A DNA stretch of 64,000 bases, taken from Rhodohalobacter sp. 614A (GTDB lineage: Bacteria; Bacteroidota; Rhodothermia; Balneolales; Balneolaceae). The translations under genes and the position numbers were made by a program. The stretch covers positions 868,001 through 932,000 of the forward strand of contig NZ_JAKEDS010000002.1 of the NCBI RefSeq assembly GCF_021462415.1, given 5' to 3'. Below, piece by piece: positions 2 to 14,777 of this stretch. The notes beneath the pieces were generated by a model. It worked only from the letters and a program-made list of their open reading frames with translations. It was not told the origin of the DNA and made no database searches. The number at the start of each line of letters is the position of its first letter. The first letter of the stretch is position 1.

Positions 2-3000
2 CAAAGAAACTGGTGGACCACGGGCGTTACATTTGTGGATATCAACAATGATGGACGATTGGATATCTACGTTTCCAATGTGGGCGGAATTTTAAATTTT
101 GATGGCCACAGTGAACTATTTATCAATCTTGGGAATAATGAAGAAGGTGTTCCGCAATTTGAAGAACGGGCCGCTGAATACGGTTTAGACCTTCAGGGCC
201 TTGCAACACAAGCGGCTTTCTTTGATTACGATTTAGACGGCGATCTGGATATGTACATGATGAATCATTCGGTTCATTCACTGGGTACATTTAATTATTC
301 CACGTTGCGGGAAGAATCTCATCCGTTTGCCGGCGACCGTCTCATGAGAAATGATGATCATACATTTACAGACGTAACAGAAAAAAGCGGAATTTATAAT
401 TCTGCACTCGGATATGGCTTGGGAATTGGAATATCAGATCTAAATCAGGACGGATGGCCGGATATTTATATCGGAAATGATTTTCATGAAGATGATTATC
501 TCTATATCAATAATCAAGACGGCACTTTTACGGAATCCCTTGGAGAGATGATCCGCCATACAAGTTATTCATCTATGGGAAATGATCTTGTTGATTTCAA
601 TAATGACGGGCTAGTTGATATTATTTCCCTGGATATGCTTCCTGAAGATTATGAAAAATTAAAAGCATCAGCGGCAGAAGATCCTCTTGAAATATTTAAC
701 ACCAAACTATCTTACGGCTATAAATATCAATTCACCAGAAATACACTGCAATTGAACCGTGGTGCAGGAAAATTCAGTGAGATTGGGATGTTGGCGGGTG
801 TATATGCTACCGATTGGAGCTGGGCAGCTTTGGGAGCCGATTTTGACAACAATGGATTTAACGACTTGTTTATCTCCAATGGTATTTACGGGCGCACCAA
901 TGATCTGGATTATATAACCTATATCACTCAGGATGACATTCAGGAAAAACTGGCGGGAGAACTAAGCGAAGACGATGTACGGCTTGCTGAGCGTGCGCCT
1001 GCTGTGAAAATCCCAAATTATATGTATAGCAATAACGGGTCGCTGGTATTTGAGGATGTCTCCGAATCGTGGGGACTAAATCAGAATACATTTTCGAGCG
1101 GTGCGGTTTTTGCAGATTTGGATAATGACGGGGCTCTCGATTTGGTCACGAACAATGTAAATCAACCGGCATCTGTTTATCGGAACAGATCACGCGAGTT
1201 AGGCGAAAAATCCAGTCGTTTCTTAAAAGTTAAACTGAATGGCCCGCAAAAAAACCGATATGGAATCGGGACAAAAGTTTCCATACACAGAGAAGCTGAA
1301 AGAGGTGTTTTGATTCGAGAACTCTATCCGGTCAGGGGATTTCAATCTTCAGTCGAGCCCATTCTTCATTTTGGTTTGGATTCCCTCCAAACAATCTCCG
1401 AAATGATTGTTGAATGGCCAGATGGAAAAAGTCAGGTTCTTCAAAATATTTCCACCAATCAAACATTGGAAATCGATTACGCAAACGCTTCAGAAATATA
1501 TCAAGAAGGTTCAGTTTCTGAGAGCGATCAAGGACAAGCATTTTTTGAAGAAATTACTGAACAGCTAAACATCTCCTATAAACATGAGGAAAATGATTTT
1601 ATTGAATTTAACCGGGAGACACTCATTCCTCATATGGTTTCCCGGGAAGGTCCGGCGATTGCTGTTGCTGATGTGAACGGGGATGGATTAGACGATTTTT
1701 TTGCGGGTGGTGCCAAACGTCAGCCAGCTTCACTTTATATCCAACAAGATAACGGCACTTTTCAACAGAAGAATATTTCGGCTTTTGAGGAAGATTTTAT
1801 ACAGGAAGATGTTGATGCGAAATTCGCTGATTTTACCGGTGACGGACACACCGATTTACTTGTTGTGAGTGGAGGAAATGAATACTCCGGCAGTTCAGAA
1901 TATATGCCGCCACGACTGTATTTAAATGACGGCAAAGGAAATTTTATTCGGGATAATGAACGGCTACCGGATTTATATATCACAGGCTCTGTAGCTGCGG
2001 TTAGTGATGTCAATCAGGATGGATTGCCAGATCTTTTTATTGGAGCCAGAGCGGTTCCCTGGAATTACGGTCATCGCCCGGAAAGTTATCTTTTAATCAA
2101 CCGGGGAGAGGGTTTTTTTAGAATTGATACTACCGAGTTTGGAAAGCAATTTTCAGATTTAGGGCTTGTTACCGGAGCTGTATGGTCTGATATGGATTTG
2201 GATGGAAAACCCGATTTGGTTATTTCCTCAGAATGGGAATCCATTAAAATTGTATTCGGTGATCAGGACAAAAGAATTCAGGAGCTTCGTGGTTCTTCCG
2301 GTCTTTGGAATACGGTTGTTGTTAGAGATTTGAATCACGATGGCTGGCCGGATATACTGGCTGGGAATCTTGGTTTGAATTCCAAGTTTAAAGCATCGTC
2401 CGACAAACCCTTGCGAATGTACGTGAATGATTATGATAACAATGGAATCATAGAGCAGATAGTTACATACGTTGATAAAAATGGGAGAGAACGACTCTTT
2501 GCCACAAAGGATGAGCTTGAAGAACAACTACCCTATATCAGGGAGCGATTTGAGGGATACCAGGCTTTTGCCGAAGCTGATTTGTATGATGTCCTTGATC
2601 AAGATCTTTTGAATCAATCCATTCAATATGAAGCAGAAGAATTACACTCTGTTGTGTTCATGAATAATGAAAATGGCTTTATCAAAAAAGCTTTACCTAT
2701 TGAAGTTCAGTTTTCCCCGGTTTATGATTTCTTCATTCATGACTTAAATAGCGATGGTTCTGAGGATGTTATTTCTGTGGGAAATTTTCTGAACGCCAAC
2801 ATCCAGCGGGGGCGTTATGATGCCGGCTATGGAAGCATTTTGTTTAATGATGGAAATGGCAATTTAGATCACATCCCCAACAGGGAAGCTGATTGGTTTT
2901 TGAACGGTCAAATCCGAAGAGCAGAAATGATTCGTATTGGTAATTCAAAGGTATTAATCACAGCAGAAAATGATGGGATTTTGAGATTCTTCAAAATAAA

Positions 3001-3010
3001 CTCTCTTTAA
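2..3010 (+). CDS. FG-GAP/VCBS repeat protein with ASPIC/UnbV domain, 5' partial
   Basis: Large secreted-type beta-propeller protein of the CRTAC1-like family. The reading frame is open to the left edge (codons from base 2 read QRNWWTTGVTF before VDINNDG), so the N-terminus and any signal peptide lie outside the window. Many calcium-binding-like repeats of the D-x-[DN]-x-D-G-x-x-D type are visible (DINNDGRLD, DYDLDGDLD, DLNQDGWPD, DFNNDGLVD, DLDNDGALD, DVNGDGLDD and others), in two blocks. Between them, around visible residues 405-475, lies an ASPIC/UnbV domain with the characteristic GIGTKV and VEWPDGKSQ stretches. In this phylum such proteins are outer-surface or exported and often sit near carbohydrate genes; the substrate is unknown. 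It faces the DUF1080 gene tail to tail across a terminator hairpin. Confidence 0.85.
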   Translation, partial: QRNWWTTGVTFVDINNDGRLDIYVSNVGGILNFDGHSELFINLGNNEEGVPQFEERAAEYGLDLQGLATQAAFFDYDLDGDLDMYMMNHSVHSLGTFNYSTLREESHPFAGDRLMRNDDHTFTDVTEKSGIYNSALGYGLGIGISDLNQDGWPDIYIGNDFHEDDYLYINNQDGTFTESLGEMIRHTSYSSMGNDLVDFNNDGLVDIISLDMLPEDYEKLKASAAEDPLEIFNTKLSYGYKYQFTRNTLQLNRGAGKFSEIGMLAGVYATDWSWAALGADFDNNGFNDLFISNGIYGRTNDLDYITYITQDDIQEKLAGELSEDDVRLAERAPAVKIPNYMYSNNGSLVFEDVSESWGLNQNTFSSGAVFADLDNDGALDLVTNNVNQPASVYRNRSRELGEKSSRFLKVKLNGPQKNRYGIGTKVSIHREAERGVLIRELYPVRGFQSSVEPILHFGLDSLQTISEMIVEWPDGKSQVLQNISTNQTLEIDYANASEIYQEGSVSESDQGQAFFEEITEQLNISYKHEENDFIEFNRETLIPHMVSREGPAIAVADVNGDGLDDFFAGGAKRQPASLYIQQDNGTFQQKNISAFEEDFIQEDVDAKFADFTGDGHTDLLVVSGGNEYSGSSEYMPPRLYLNDGKGNFIRDNERLPDLYITGSVAAVSDVNQDGLPDLFIGARAVPWNYGHRPESYLLINRGEGFFRIDTTEFGKQFSDLGLVTGAVWSDMDLDGKPDLVISSEWESIKIVFGDQDKRIQELRGSSGLWNTVVVRDLNHDGWPDILAGNLGLNSKFKASSDKPLRMYVNDYDNNGIIEQIVTYVDKNGRERLFATKDELEEQLPYIRERFEGYQAFAEADLYDVLDQDLLNQSIQYEAEELHSVVFMNNENGFIKKALPIEVQFSPVYDFFIHDLNSDGSEDVISVGNFLNANIQRGRYDAGYGSILFNDGNGNLDHIPNREADWFLNGQIRRAEMIRIGNSKVLITAENDGILRFFKINSL

Positions 3011-9004: not shown

Positions 9005-10333
9005 ATGCCGAAAGTTATTCAAAAGCTTCACGATTTTGCCAATCTCATTGATCCCGAAAAAAACCAAATCTTCAACATGTCTCATGAAGAGGCAGAAGAA
9101 ATTGTAGCAGGAGGAAACCCGGATGAAGTAAGAAAAATTGACGGGAGTTTCGCAATTGTTACCAAGCGGGATCAGCAGGTTCGAATGGCTCGTTCAATTG
9201 GTCGTCCAATGCGATATTTCATGGCTAAACAAGTGGATGGGCCACTGTTGGTTGTTGCCGAAAGAATAGATGATATTTACAACTACCTGAAAGAGCTTGA
9301 TCTTCATCATCAATTTAAGCCAGATTATACGCGAATGGTTCCCGCCCATTATGTTACCAAACTTGATGTGATTGGCTGCCCGGATCCGAATCCTGATTAC
9401 AAACGATATTTTACACCGAAGAGAAATCAGCTTTCCGGGAATTTGGACAAAATCGGAGAAGCCTATGTCAGCGCAATGGCTCATGAATGTGAAAAATGGC
9501 TGGATTCAATCCCTAAGGAAGAACCGATTGGTGTGCTGTTTTCCGGCGGAATTGATAGTGGTTCCGTTTTCCTGACTCTTTATGATTTATTGCTAAAAAG
9601 GGGAGAGTCACCCGCACGATTGAAAGCTTTTACACTTTCGATTAATCATGGCCCGGATGCATCCCAAGCTTACGAGTTTTTGGATTCGCTGGATTTAAGC
9701 ATGTTCCTTGAAGTTATTGAAGGAGAGGTCACCGACCTTGATTACAAGGAGACAATTCGGGTGATTGAAGACTATAAACAGCGTGATGTTGAAGCTGCGA
9801 CAACAGCACTAACGCTTTGCAAAAAAATCCGGGAGAAATATCCTGACTGGAAATATCTGGTTGATGGCGATGGGGGAGATGAAAATCTGAAAGCCTACCC
9901 GATTGAAGATAACCCGGAATTGACCATTCGGAGTGTTCTCAACAATCCACTGCTTTATCATGAAGGGTGGGGAGTCGACAAAATTAAACATTCGTTAACC
10001 TACAGTGGCGGACAAAGCCGAGGTAGTGTCCGGACGTATGCAACGGCTTCGCATTTCGGTTTTGAAGGTTTCAGTCCGTATTCGCTTCCAAATGTTATTG
10101 AGGTTTCAGAAGGAATTCCATTTATCCAACTTACAGATTGGAAGCATGAGGAGCTTTATGCCTTAAAAGGAGAAATTGTTCAGAGAGGAATAAAAGCTGC
10201 AACGGGCCTGGAGATGCCGGTATTTCCAAAGCGAAGAATGCAGCACGGTTCTGTTCAAATGGATGATTTCAGCAAGGTTTTTCCGGATGATGAAATGGTG
10301 TATCGCGATTATTTCCGGTCGCTTTATCACTAA
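9005..10333 (+). CDS. Asparagine synthase-related protein lacking the Cys nucleophile
   Basis: 442 residues, shorter than AsnB. Residues about 40-125 resemble the end of a class II glutaminase domain (IDGSFAIVTKRDQQVRMARSIGRPMRYF, compare the DGxFA...ARDRxGxKPLYY region of AsnB), but the family's N-terminal start with Cys2 is absent. Residues about 150-430 form the synthetase domain with the PP-loop SGGIDSGS (180-187) and DGDGGDENLK (287-296). ATP binding and adenylation chemistry are therefore plausible, while glutamine hydrolysis is not. Homologues with lost glutaminase function include beta-lactam synthetases and lasso peptide cyclases, but no precursor peptide or protease gene is nearby. 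It is convergent with the cupin gene, 1 bp away. Confidence 0.75.
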   Translation: MPKVIQKLHDFANLIDPEKNQIFNMSHEEAEEIVAGGNPDEVRKIDGSFAIVTKRDQQVRMARSIGRPMRYFMAKQVDGPLLVVAERIDDIYNYLKELDLHHQFKPDYTRMVPAHYVTKLDVIGCPDPNPDYKRYFTPKRNQLSGNLDKIGEAYVSAMAHECEKWLDSIPKEEPIGVLFSGGIDSGSVFLTLYDLLLKRGESPARLKAFTLSINHGPDASQAYEFLDSLDLSMFLEVIEGEVTDLDYKETIRVIEDYKQRDVEAATTALTLCKKIREKYPDWKYLVDGDGGDENLKAYPIEDNPELTIRSVLNNPLLYHEGWGVDKIKHSLTYSGGQSRGSVRTYATASHFGFEGFSPYSLPNVIEVSEGIPFIQLTDWKHEELYALKGEIVQRGIKAATGLEMPVFPKRRMQHGSVQMDDFSKVFPDDEMVYRDYFRSLYH

Positions 10334-10334
10334 T

Positions 10335-10679
10335 TTATTTTTCAGTTATGATGCGATCACCGTGACTTGGCGGAACCGAAATAACTAAAAATTCTACTGA
10401 TTTCTTTGAAGTGTTTTTAACCTGATGTAATACATTTGGCAACACATGAAGACCTTCATTGGTTTTAACTGAGAATACTTTTTCATCCATTTCAATAGTC
10501 AGGATGCCATCAAGAACATAGAAAAATTGTTCAGCTTCTTGATGATAATGCTCTGTTTCTTCTGAACCCGGAGGCATTAATTCCTGAATGATGCTAAGCC
10601 GATCGTTTTTTACAAAATGCCAGCCATCACAGGAATTTCCCCATTTGTAATGTTCTGAATTACCTTTGTTTATTTTCAT
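10335..10679 (-). CDS. Cupin domain protein
   Basis: 114-residue single-domain cupin. Motif 1 is clear (PPGSEETEHYHQEAEQFFYVLDG: two His, one Glu and the terminal Gly), and motif 2 lies near GLHVLPNVLHQVKN with its His. Such small cupins bind a metal and act as sugar-binding, isomerase or dioxygenase-like proteins. The role here is unknown. It lies 31 bp downstream of the Wzi-like gene on the same strand, so co-transcription is possible. Confidence 0.8.
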   Translation of the reverse strand: MKINKGNSEHYKWGNSCDGWHFVKNDRLSIIQELMPPGSEETEHYHQEAEQFFYVLDGILTIEMDEKVFSVKTNEGLHVLPNVLHQVKNTSKKSVEFLVISVPPSHGDRIITEK

Positions 10680-10710: not shown

Positions 10711-12189
10711 CTAATTGGACCAGATGATGCTGGTTAATACTCCAAACTGATCTCCAAAAAGCCGTCCGTTATCCAAGGCAGCTTCTATTCTGAGTGAAAT
10801 ATTCTCATTTGGAATTATCGGTAAAGGAAATTCCGCACCTGCCAGGATGGACCATTGCTCCAGCACTCGTCCGGGAAGAGTATCTACTGTATTTTCGCAA
10901 CGAATTCCGAACAACTCTTGCTCGCCTAAATTAGGAACCCGGTTATCACAGCGCTTGCCATAATTTCTGCTGTACGTAACTTTTCCAAACAGATCAAATG
11001 CCTCAAAATCAGATTCAACACCGATATGATGCGCTACAATCCGGTTGTTGAGAATTCCCAGATTTTCTTCATTCAGTTTAAATAATGGATTGCCAATCAT
11101 ACGGAATTGATAGGCCCATCCGGTTTTATAAATTCCATGATTATAGTAATTCTGATTGCCGCGATAGAGGTCAACACTGGGATCTGCATCAGGATTTAAC
11201 CTTCTCTCGCCACCCTGATTTTTTGTGTAAAGATATTCATACACAAAGTTGTCAATGGGGAAATTGAAATCTTCATCAAAATCGACAGAAATTCCGGTCA
11301 GAATATCATTCATATTCTTGAATTTCAGATCATACTTTGTTTCAATAGGAGCCTGTAGATAAATGTTTATATTCGTTTCCGGAAGTTCAATCAAAGAACC
11401 GAATGCCCACGTTCCAAGTTGATTTCCCAAAACATATGCCTGATCCTGTCCCGGAGTGGCTTCATCTCCGCTTTGAGCAAAGAAGATGTCAATAAAATCA
11501 GAAAAGCCACTTGGGATATCACCAACACTTGGATCCGGACTATTGCCCCCCCACAAAACATAATGAGCGAGTCCTCCATAAATATTTAAAACATGATCGC
11601 CCCCGAATTTAACATACCCGGCTTTTTCGTGAAGAAGTACATCATTTACATATCGTTCACTTCCCAGCCATCCATGGGAAATAAACCCTTGAATATGAAT
11701 AAAGTTATTTGTGAAAGGTATTGGTGTCCAATCAATTAAGCCAAATTTTAATTTTGGTATTGGAGTGGCGTTCGTGCTGATTCCAAGAGAGCCCATTCCC
11801 AAAGGATGATCATAAAGTGGGGAGGGATCAACAAACCTTCCACCGGCTAATTCCAAACCGTATCCCTGAATTTTAACATATCCCTGATTTAGTGAAACTG
11901 TGGACTGATCTCCAGGTCTTGCGATCAGACTGGCTCCATACAGAATGTCAATGTCTTCCCATTCATCGAATAAATTGTGGTATTGAAGCCTCGTTAGAAA
12001 CTGGCTCCCTTCCCTCGAATAGATTCCGTTCCTGTTGGAATCAAACCAAAAAGGAGTGTTGCTTTCAGAACTGATGATACCCGTTGTTTCGATTGAAAAT
12101 TGAGCCTGGATATCGTTGACAGTGAAAAGGGTAAGAAAAAATAGAACCGCTGTAAGGGTTGATATTATTCGTTTCACAAAAAAACTCAT
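10711..12189 (-). CDS. Wzi-like capsule assembly outer-membrane beta-barrel protein
   Basis: About 492 residues with a signal peptide (MSFFVKRIISTLTAVLFFLTLFTVNDIQAQ) and a beta-barrel-rich body. Features of the Wzi family include the early TPFWFDSNRNGIYS, AGGRFVDPSPLYDHPLGMGSLG and GWLGSERYVNDVLLHEKAGYVKFGG. E. coli Wzi is an outer-membrane lectin that anchors capsule; homologues in this phylum are assumed to handle surface polysaccharide. I start at ATG 12189 rather than the upstream TTG at 12216, because a perfect -7 box sits at 12214-12221 and transcription should begin between them. No other capsule gene is nearby. Confidence 0.8.
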   Translation of the reverse strand: MSFFVKRIISTLTAVLFFLTLFTVNDIQAQFSIETTGIISSESNTPFWFDSNRNGIYSREGSQFLTRLQYHNLFDEWEDIDILYGASLIARPGDQSTVSLNQGYVKIQGYGLELAGGRFVDPSPLYDHPLGMGSLGISTNATPIPKLKFGLIDWTPIPFTNNFIHIQGFISHGWLGSERYVNDVLLHEKAGYVKFGGDHVLNIYGGLAHYVLWGGNSPDPSVGDIPSGFSDFIDIFFAQSGDEATPGQDQAYVLGNQLGTWAFGSLIELPETNINIYLQAPIETKYDLKFKNMNDILTGISVDFDEDFNFPIDNFVYEYLYTKNQGGERRLNPDADPSVDLYRGNQNYYNHGIYKTGWAYQFRMIGNPLFKLNEENLGILNNRIVAHHIGVESDFEAFDLFGKVTYSRNYGKRCDNRVPNLGEQELFGIRCENTVDTLPGRVLEQWSILAGAEFPLPIIPNENISLRIEAALDNGRLFGDQFGVLTSIIWSN

Positions 12190-12213
12190 GTTTGAATGGA
12201 TGAAGTCGTAAAT

Positions 12214-12221
12214 CAAAGATA
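12214..12221 (-). promoter_or_regulatory. -7 box TATCTTTG upstream of the Wzi-like gene
   Basis: On the minus strand this reads TATCTTTG, an exact TAnnTTTG Bacteroidota -7 box. It lies about 25 bp upstream of the chosen ATG at 12189. No clear TTTG -33 box is visible at the usual distance. It supports the shorter start of the gene. Confidence 0.45.
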
Positions 12222-12321: not shown

Positions 12322-13257
12322 TTGATTCGTCAGATAACCAATAAAACTGTTGAAAAATATCGTCCCCAAAAGGCGGAAGTTGATCATTCCATCCCTTACC
12401 TGTATTTAAATGAAAAGGAAGTTCAGAAGGATGGTACGGTTCAAGATGTAAATACCATTTTTCTGACAAACAGGGAGTGTCCGTTCAAATGTGTAATGTG
12501 TGATCTTTGGCGCCATACACTGGATAAGCCCACGCCAAAAGGAGCAATTCCGAGACAAATTGAGTATGCACTGGAAAGGTTGCCAAATGCGGACGTTGTG
12601 AAGTTGTATAATAGCGGCAATTTCTTTGATGGGAAAGCTATTCCCAGATACGATTACGAGAAAATTTCCGACTTACTTTCCGGTTATGATCACGTTATCG
12701 TTGAGAATCATCCAAGATTAATCGGATCATTCATTCCCAAGTTCAGAGATATGTTAAACAGTTCTTTGGAAATAGCGATGGGACTCGAAACCATTCATCC
12801 AAAGGTTCTTCCAAAGCTGAATAAGCAGATTACGAAAGAAGATTTTTTTGAAGCCACTCGTTTTTTAAATCAAGAGGAAATTGACGTACGGGCTTTTATT
12901 CTTTTAAATCCGCCTTTTTTAACGGATCCCAAAGAAAATATTGAATGGTGCTTAAAATCCGTTGAATTTGCATTTGATTCCGGTTGTACTGCCTGCTCTA
13001 TTATTCCTGTTCGGGACGGAAACGGAATTATGGAGGAGTTAAAAAAATCCGGAGATTATATTCCTCCAACACTTACAGCCCTTGAAACGGTGTTCGAGCG
13101 ATCTTTGCAAATGAATAACGGCAGGGTTTTCTGTGATGTTTGGGATCTCGAAAAATTTTCGGATTGTGATGTTTGTTTTGAACCCCGAAAAAAACGGTTA
13201 GAAAAGATGAATCTGTCACAGAACGTTTTGCCGGGAATCAATTGTGACTGTAATTGA
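12322..13257 (+). CDS. Radical SAM protein (CxxxCxxC), RaSEA-like/TIGR01210-type
   Basis: 311 residues. The 4Fe-4S/SAM motif is C-PFK-C-VM-C within NRECPFKCVMCDLW. Downstream are GNFFDGKAIPRYDYEKI, the GLETIHPKVLPKLNKQ strand (common in Elp3/RaSEA-type enzymes) and a C-terminal Cys-rich end (CDVC and CDCN) that might bind a second cluster or metal. The overall look is closest to the TIGR01210/archaeosine-synthase-partner type, but in bacteria the substrate is unknown. The start is TTG; no ATG precedes the cluster motif in frame. The next gene begins 14 bp later, so the pair is almost surely an operon. Confidence 0.75.
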   Translation: MIRQITNKTVEKYRPQKAEVDHSIPYLYLNEKEVQKDGTVQDVNTIFLTNRECPFKCVMCDLWRHTLDKPTPKGAIPRQIEYALERLPNADVVKLYNSGNFFDGKAIPRYDYEKISDLLSGYDHVIVENHPRLIGSFIPKFRDMLNSSLEIAMGLETIHPKVLPKLNKQITKEDFFEATRFLNQEEIDVRAFILLNPPFLTDPKENIEWCLKSVEFAFDSGCTACSIIPVRDGNGIMEELKKSGDYIPPTLTALETVFERSLQMNNGRVFCDVWDLEKFSDCDVCFEPRKKRLEKMNLSQNVLPGINCDCN

Positions 13258-13271
13258 AGTTACTGTTATAG

Positions 13272-14777
13272 ATGAAAAAGTTTGATTTTATGGTAGTTGG
13301 ATCAGGATTTTCCGGTTCAATTACAGCAATGGCCTTAAAGAATTCCGGGTACTCGGTGTGCCTGGTTGAAAAGGAAAAACATCCTCGGTTTGCTATTGGC
13401 GAATCTTCTACTCCGATTGCAGATATGATTTTGAGAGATCTGGCTGATCAGTATAATCTTCCAATTTTGAAGAAGCTGTCCAGGTACGGAGAATGGCAGA
13501 AGAATTATCCTGAAATTGTCTGCGGTTTGAAAAGGGGATTCAGTTATTATCAGCATAAAAATAGAGAGAAGTTTCATTCAGATGAAAATCATAGCAGGGA
13601 GTTACTTGTTGCTGCCAGCAAAAACGATCAAAATTCAGATACAAACTGGCTTCGAAGTGATGTGGATCACTTTTTGGTAAAGAACGCAGTTGAGACAGGA
13701 GTGACTTATTTTGATCAGACCGAAATTGATAAGCTCTCCAGAAATGCGAATGATAAAAAATGGTCGGTTTTCCTGGATTCATCCGGGGCGTTGGAAGAAA
13801 TTGAATGCAATTGGTTGATTGATGCCACAGGCGGACCCAATTTTTCAGCCAAATTCTTTAAAACTGAAAGCACTTCAACGGGTTTTGAGACTAATTCTTC
13901 CGCCATTTATTCTCATTTCAAACATGTTCCTCACTGGCTAAAACACCTCCATAATCACGGGTTTAAAACTTCTGACTATCCATATAACCCGGATTATTCA
14001 GCCCTTCACCACTTGATTGAAGAAGGGTGGATTTGGATGCTTCGGTTTAATAATGATTTGTTGAGTGCCGGGATTCTGTTGGATCATAATCACAATGAAT
14101 TGAATGCAGATATTGAGCCTGAGAAGCAGTGGAATACAATAATTGGAAAATATCCGTCCCTTAAAACTCTTTTTAAAGATGCTGAAATCGCTGAAATACC
14201 GAACCGTTATTTCGGAACACCACGGTTACAACGAAGATTGGATAAATTGTTCGGCAACGGCTGGGTGGTTTTGCCACATACAGCGGGTTTTGTAGATCCA
14301 CTTCACAGTACAGGAATTGCATTTACGCTGAGTGGAGTTGAGAAAATTTTAAAACTTTTCACTTCAAATTTGTCCGAAAAAGACCAAATAAAGTGCTTGG
14401 GAAATTATCAAGATAAAGTCTTTAATGAATTGTTCTTCATTGATTTATTGGTTTCTATTTCTTATAAAACAAGAAACCATTTTGACCTATTTTCTGCCTC
14501 CACAATGCTCTATTTTATTGCTTCTATTCGATATGAACAAAGTCGATTGAGAGGTGAAATTCCAGACACATTTTTGTGTGCAGGCGAGCCTGAAATCAGA
14601 GAATTGATTCAACAATCGTTCAATGAAATCAAATCATCGAATATGGATGCTATCTCAGATGGAGAGATTCAAAATCTTATTCAACGAATTCGCAAGCGAA
14701 TTGAACCCTACAATTCAGTTGGGCTTATGAACCCGGATCTGAAAAATATGTACAAACACACGGCTGTCGAGCTTTAA
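13272..14777 (+). CDS. Flavin-dependent halogenase-like FAD oxidoreductase
   Basis: 501 residues. The FAD-binding motif is VVGSGFSGS (8-16). RFAIGESSTP (39-48) is typical of tryptophan-halogenase-like proteins. GLKRGFSYY (85-93) places K87 where halogenases carry their catalytic Lys in a K-x-G-[IF]-x-[FY] context. GWIWMLRF (252-259) corresponds to the WxWxIP motif in altered form. FVDPLHSTG (340-348) fits the F-x-x-P-x-x-S-x-G halogenase motif. Together these suggest halogenation, though the IP of WxWxIP is replaced by LR and the family also holds non-halogenating monooxygenases. It needs reduced FAD from a partner reductase not encoded here. The radical SAM gene directly precedes it. Confidence 0.72.
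   Translation: MKKFDFMVVGSGFSGSITAMALKNSGYSVCLVEKEKHPRFAIGESSTPIADMILRDLADQYNLPILKKLSRYGEWQKNYPEIVCGLKRGFSYYQHKNREKFHSDENHSRELLVAASKNDQNSDTNWLRSDVDHFLVKNAVETGVTYFDQTEIDKLSRNANDKKWSVFLDSSGALEEIECNWLIDATGGPNFSAKFFKTESTSTGFETNSSAIYSHFKHVPHWLKHLHNHGFKTSDYPYNPDYSALHHLIEEGWIWMLRFNNDLLSAGILLDHNHNELNADIEPEKQWNTIIGKYPSLKTLFKDAEIAEIPNRYFGTPRLQRRLDKLFGNGWVVLPHTAGFVDPLHSTGIAFTLSGVEKILKLFTSNLSEKDQIKCLGNYQDKVFNELFFIDLLVSISYKTRNHFDLFSASTMLYFIASIRYEQSRLRGEIPDTFLCAGEPEIRELIQQSFNEIKSSNMDAISDGEIQNLIQRIRKRIEPYNSVGLMNPDLKNMYKHTAVEL

Follow-up and report, generated by a model that had tools for sequence, protein, structure and literature searches.

The maturation of QHNDH pairs a radical SAM enzyme with the flavin monooxygenase QhpG, and the cyclases that form lasso peptides are asparagine-synthetase-like. 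Among the flavin-dependent halogenases of phenolic compounds are the tetracycline 7-halogenase CtcP and the phloroglucinol halogenase PltM; the latter possesses a conserved catalytic lysine, Lys87, whose replacement (K87A) leaves the enzyme inactive, and a C-terminal helical region described as unique (PMC6424973). RaSEA acts on the preQ0-lysine made by ArcS and forms a complex with it (PMC11298593). In addition, the ammosamide cluster encodes the flavin halogenase Amm3 together with Amm20, a candidate AsnB-like amidase (PMC12715798). Beyond ammosamide, nothing relevant to a combination of such a ligase with a radical SAM enzyme and a halogenase was found in the literature searched, a coverage that leaves out most subscription journals.

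In this report, we focus on a locus of Rhodohalobacter sp. 614A, studied within a window of 64,000 nucleotides (the whole stretch of DNA analysed). Two of its genes lie 14 bp apart on the forward strand: rSAM (12322..13257, 311 aa, TTG start), encoding a radical SAM enzyme that is a remote relative of RaSEA, and HAL (13272..14777, 501 aa), encoding a homologue of the PltM/CtcP-like flavin-dependent halogenases. Both reading frames were found where the first-pass annotation had placed them, as were the motifs it had listed, which read CxxxCxxC in rSAM and GSGFSG, K87 in G-x-K-R-G-F, W253-I-W255-M-L-R and FVDPLHSTG in HAL. That annotation described a unit of just these two genes, a reading rejected here because a third, ligase-like gene, ASN, co-occurs with them in an all-or-none manner and is co-inherited. 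ASN (9005..10333, forward strand, 442 aa) encodes an ATP-dependent ligase similar to asparagine synthetase and beta-lactam synthetase, with a truncated Ntn domain, and lies about 2 kb upstream of rSAM. It had been overlooked because a Wzi-like gene (10711..12216) and, in this genome, a cupin gene (10335..10679), both on the opposite strand, separate it from rSAM; these genes interrupt the cassette and are not members of it. Wzi on the other strand also sets ASN apart in some close relatives, and in most of the neighbourhoods compared (relatives in Balneolota, Pyrinomonadaceae of the Acidobacteriota, Phycisphaerae of the Planctomycetota, and Verrucomicrobiota) the third gene is found directly upstream of rSAM.

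Three independent searches located ASN and rSAM in an identical set of 36 of 119 related genomes, and HAL in 35 of these. The single genome without HAL (G011) has its rSAM at a contig end, and one other genome (G104) contains a distant HAL homologue alone (29% identity). The set is missing from seven of the 28 genomes of the same genus, and its presence is thus patchy at short distance. Nine genomes from other phyla were identified by way of rSAM; all of them also possess ASN and HAL, which in several lie on other contigs. Within the Planctomycetota, ASN was detected in 13 of 294 genomes; in each of the 12 new ASN-positive genomes it is accompanied by rSAM and HAL, with E-values no worse than 2.5e-76 and 1.3e-128, respectively, whereas neither was present in any of 20 ASN-negative ones, where the best matches reached 2e-12 and 3e-20. 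HAL lies far from ASN and rSAM in eight of those 12 genomes, and linkage alone therefore cannot explain the association. Acidobacteriota encode ASN in 30 of 297 genomes, and among 23 neighbourhoods from this phylum ASN was found with rSAM in 21 and all three genes together in 19. Overall, the set occurs in Balneolota, Acidobacteriota, Planctomycetota and one genome of Verrucomicrobiota; Fodinibius roseus, F. sediminis and Rhodohalobacter sulfatireducens are carriers that have been cultured. rSAM and HAL, the frequency of whose adjacency had been proposed as a check on the two-gene unit, stand side by side in almost all sampled genomes having both, much more often than chance would allow, and their association reaches well beyond Balneolota.

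The arrangement of the genes is equally regular. Loci were searched by a six-frame HMM search, and wherever the three genes were all full-length (52/52 loci) they followed the order ASN-rSAM-HAL on one strand, with median gaps, measured to the HMM start, of about 42 bp (ASN-rSAM) and about 12 bp (rSAM-HAL). Pairwise distances between the families are correlated (Mantel r of 0.92 for ASN-rSAM, 0.79 for ASN-HAL and 0.76 for rSAM-HAL, with 0 of 999 permutations as high), a correlation that partly reflects shared species history. Phyla cluster in a quick ASN tree and are not cleanly separated, a pattern compatible with transfer between phyla; a plasmid search with ASN gave no match. A fourth gene family common to the sampled neighbourhoods was not found; additional members may lie unlinked.

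ASN is the most conserved member of the set, with a mean identity of 59% vs 45% for rSAM and 39% for HAL, and matches Pfam Asn_synthase (2.9e-11). The ATP-pyrophosphatase signature of its PP-loop, SGGIDS at residues 180-185 (9542..9559, forward strand), follows the SGGxDS pattern, the S, G, G, D and S being conserved in 75/75 sequences. The DGDGGDE motif aligns with GEGSDE of human asparagine synthetase, and its central Asp is kept in 72/75; D289 is an Asp at the position held by Glu in asparagine synthetases, and K328 and K388 are invariant. In fold comparison, the structural model of ASN (pLDDT 80.1) reaches a Z score of 23.5 with beta-lactam synthetase, of 22.7 with AsnB, of 22-23 with asparagine synthetases, of 20.6 with carbapenam synthetase and of 18.9 with TsnB9; the segment holding the active site (residues 290-340) is poorly modelled, at pLDDT <50. 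Beta-lactam synthetase closes its amide intramolecularly by means of a catalytic Tyr-Glu pair. As the alignment with asparagine/beta-lactam-type synthetases begins only from their residue ~30-44 onward, and with asparagine synthetases from ~37-40, ASN is missing the start that holds the glutaminase cysteine; indeed, no N-terminal glutaminase cysteine was seen in the sequence or in the model alignment. ASN scores 41 bits against TIGR01536, the glutamine-hydrolysing asparagine synthetase family, whose cut-off is 267 bits. In one metagenome-assembled genome, an in-frame TGA breaks ASN (L043:4556-5884, also G027:C195:9180-10502), the reading frame of rSAM and the first part of that of HAL being uninterrupted.

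rSAM matches Pfam Radical_SAM (4e-08), and the CxxxCxxC motif of its [4Fe-4S] site, C53-x3-C57-x2-C60 (12478..12501, forward strand), is retained in 78/78 family sequences. The resemblance to TIGR01210 (RaSEA) noted at first pass holds as a distant kinship and not as membership: this is the best named-family match of rSAM, at 104.9 bits vs a cut-off of 212.15, and the family matched most widely among its homologues, by 16/16 sampled rSAM proteins. No protein of the genome itself scores above the TIGR01210 cut-off. Searched as a profile, the rSAM family found no match in the PDB, and rSAM itself gave no match to SPASM of Pfam. A distant relative of rSAM (27%) is carried by the Streptomyces plasmids pFRL5 and pFRL3 (L160, L161), in a row with genes for a P450, a serine hydroxymethyltransferase, a glycosyltransferase, a carbamoyltransferase and a GDSL esterase; this row is perhaps a secondary-metabolite cluster, and its different gene setting makes it uninformative. 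In two Planctomycetaceae (L065:640-6900 and L066:586-6897), rSAM directly follows apparent nuoL, nuoM and nuoN genes, identified by reading their sequences, and ASN and HAL are located elsewhere in these genomes.

HAL matches Pfam Trp_halogenase (1.1e-14), and its best PDB matches by phmmer are PltM (8.1e-41) and CtcP (5.7e-35). The AlphaFold model (pLDDT 87.8) matches both halogenases over their full length, with a TM score of 0.82 to PltM chains (499-501 residues) over ~510 alignment columns. The likeness to flavin halogenases proposed earlier is thus borne out by sequence and fold, with the phenolic enzymes as nearest relatives. In the FAD motif (residues 10-15) G10 and G15 are invariant. 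Lys87 (codon 13530..13532, forward strand) aligns with Lys87 of PltM and is present, as are Arg88 and Trp253, in 69/69 family sequences, a sample that includes a few second copies from one genome; loss of this lysine in close relatives, named earlier among the observations that would speak against the first-pass reading, was not seen. Leu257 is found in 68/69; within FVDPLHSTG, S346 is kept in 68/69 and G348 in 69/69. The departure from WxWxIP, here WIWMLR at residues 253-258 (14028..14045, forward strand) with Arg where Pro is expected, is real and family-wide: the family form is W-x-[WY]-x-L, Pro occurs in 0/69 and Arg in 54/69, the replacing residues being Arg, His, Gly, Gln or Ala. Because of this altered motif, HAL is classed as halogenase-like and not as a canonical halogenase. 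Judged from sequence and model, halogenating activity of HAL is nonetheless more likely than not.

On balance, ASN, rSAM and HAL appear to constitute one three-enzyme biosynthetic pathway, encoded as a compact cassette or dispersed in some lineages, in which each enzyme probably works like its known relative. That the three genes make a small molecule is likely, and the product is probably a small modified aromatic compound. ASN would adenylate a carboxylate with ATP and join it to an amine, forming an amide; ammonia or an amino compound is proposed as this amine because the glutamine-hydrolysing cysteine is absent. rSAM would generate a 5'-deoxyadenosyl radical and remodel the amide or amine furnished by ASN. 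By analogy with RaSEA and ArcS, in which ligation precedes radical C-N cleavage, one possibility is that rSAM cleaves a C-N bond and leaves the nitrogen behind, and a nitrogen could thereby be delivered; the parallel is one of analogy, with rSAM well below the RaSEA cut-off. HAL would use FADH2, O2, a halide and Lys87 to halogenate an electron-rich, probably phenolic, ring, hydroxylation of this ring being less likely. Because the set has no conserved companion among genes for a PKS, NRPS, carrier protein, precursor peptide or transporter, it most likely forms a free-standing pathway of three steps that starts from a housekeeping metabolite, e.g. tyrosine, 4-hydroxybenzoate or a quinone precursor. 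More tentatively, this widespread pathway might define a new class of halogenated, radical-remodelled amides (signal, pigment or cofactor) whose source in Balneolota, Acidobacteriota, Planctomycetota and Verrucomicrobiota would be an aromatic acid of housekeeping metabolism; HAL would then represent a new halogenase clade, its WxWxIP proline mostly exchanged for Arg.

Several neighbours were considered as further partners. The sugar isomerase, cupin, Wzi, DUF2207 and PfkB genes were set aside, as they are not conserved outside Balneolota; Wzi stands beside rSAM in only part of the Balneolota loci and is absent elsewhere. Proteins with FG-GAP/UnbV_ASPIC domains (PF07593) are encoded in the window at 2-3010 on the forward strand and close to the cassette in L119-L126, L063/L158, L096, L099 and L106. 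In 11 of 24 genomes such a protein is encoded no more than 10 kb from a cassette gene, vs 1.4 expected (4-25 copies per genome). The genomes behind this enrichment are related to one another and hence not independent, and six of these 11 are Acidobacteriota with partly shared synteny. These many copies and the shared synteny led to the rejection of UnbV/FG-GAP as an obligatory fourth gene, and it is kept as a lead. In three Phycisphaerae loci (L105:856-4137, L069, L072), the gene of a TPR/FG-GAP protein begins right at the end of HAL. An NQR2/RnfD/RnfE-like membrane protein is encoded among UnbV proteins beside the cassette in L119 (14844-15704), with similar genes in L120, L121, L122, L123 and L126.

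Shared ancestry and passive linkage could in principle bring together three genes of unrelated function, given that linked genes are gained and lost jointly and that the sampled genomes are related. However, co-occurrence persists where HAL, or all three genes, are unlinked, and presence is patchy within a single genus; the unlinked cases largely refute an explanation by linkage alone, three unrelated functions are very improbable, and ASN, rSAM and HAL almost certainly act as one functional unit. Within such a unit HAL might be a hydroxylase or oxidase, the product then being a non-halogenated oxidised amide. The family-wide loss of the WxWxIP proline is in line with this, as is the finding that the HMM of the flavin monooxygenase QhpG scores about as high as that of the halogenase CmlS in all 13 members, both being below cut-off for HAL of the window. 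The conservation of Lys87 and FxDPxxSTG, and a full-length fold and sequence nearest to two halogenases, weigh against it and make an oxidising, non-halogenating HAL rather unlikely.

The same similarity to QhpG, together with the precedents of QHNDH maturation and of the asparagine-synthetase-like lasso-peptide cyclases, would also suit a set that matures a protein or peptide, through QhpD/QhpG-like cofactor formation or on a ribosomal peptide. Compact loci, however, leave no space for a precursor peptide gene inside the cassette, which led to its rejection as a candidate, and the lack of a Pfam SPASM match on rSAM and the proximity of ASN to small-molecule synthetases further argue against maturation, which we regard as very doubtful. 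Slightly less improbable is the modification of a nucleic acid such as a tRNA base, in which ASN and rSAM would transfer nitrogen in a RaSEA-like manner and HAL would oxidise or halogenate the base. The TIGR01210 matches of all sampled rSAM proteins and the complex of RaSEA with its amine-attaching partner ArcS (PMC11298593) speak in its favour, and some PP-loop ligases do act on tRNA, with TilS, NcsA and TtuA appearing lower among the fold matches of ASN. Yet rSAM attains about half of the RaSEA cut-off, ASN is closest in fold to small-molecule ligases (Z 22-23 vs 10 for TilS), the nearest relatives of HAL are small-molecule phenol halogenases, and a tRNA modification would not usually be so patchily distributed within a single genus.

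That the three genes accompany one another, unlinked cases included, in phyla that are distant and for the most part uncultured points to a common product with some value for the cell. The proposed three-enzyme pathway is short enough for reconstitution, and a halogenase clade associated with a ligase/radical SAM pair would allow a direct test of RaSEA-type chemistry outside archaeal tRNA. By the tests of those families themselves, the set does not belong with RaSEA, AsnB or the canonical halogenases. HAL shares with PltM and CtcP the full-length fold, including the C-terminal helical region of PltM, as well as Lys87 at the same place and FxxPxxSxG, but is only ~24% identical to them, lacks the proline of WxWxIP and is partnered by a ligase and a radical SAM enzyme instead of a polyketide pathway. 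rSAM and RaSEA have CxxxCxxC in common, and RaSEA is likewise paired with an amine-attaching enzyme; in contrast, rSAM is bacterial, is linked to ASN and HAL, and lacks the C-terminal cysteine in some clades. With asparagine synthetase B, beta-lactam synthetase, carbapenam synthetase and TsnB9, ASN shares the PP-loop ligase fold and a remnant Ntn domain, whereas it is devoid of their initial 30-40 residues, where the glutaminase cysteine sits, and has DGDGGDE in place of GEGSDE. Finally, ammosamide is made by a large peptide-scaffold (PEARL) cluster for which no true radical SAM enzyme has been described, but that cluster resembles the present set in joining a flavin halogenase to an enzyme similar to AsnB.
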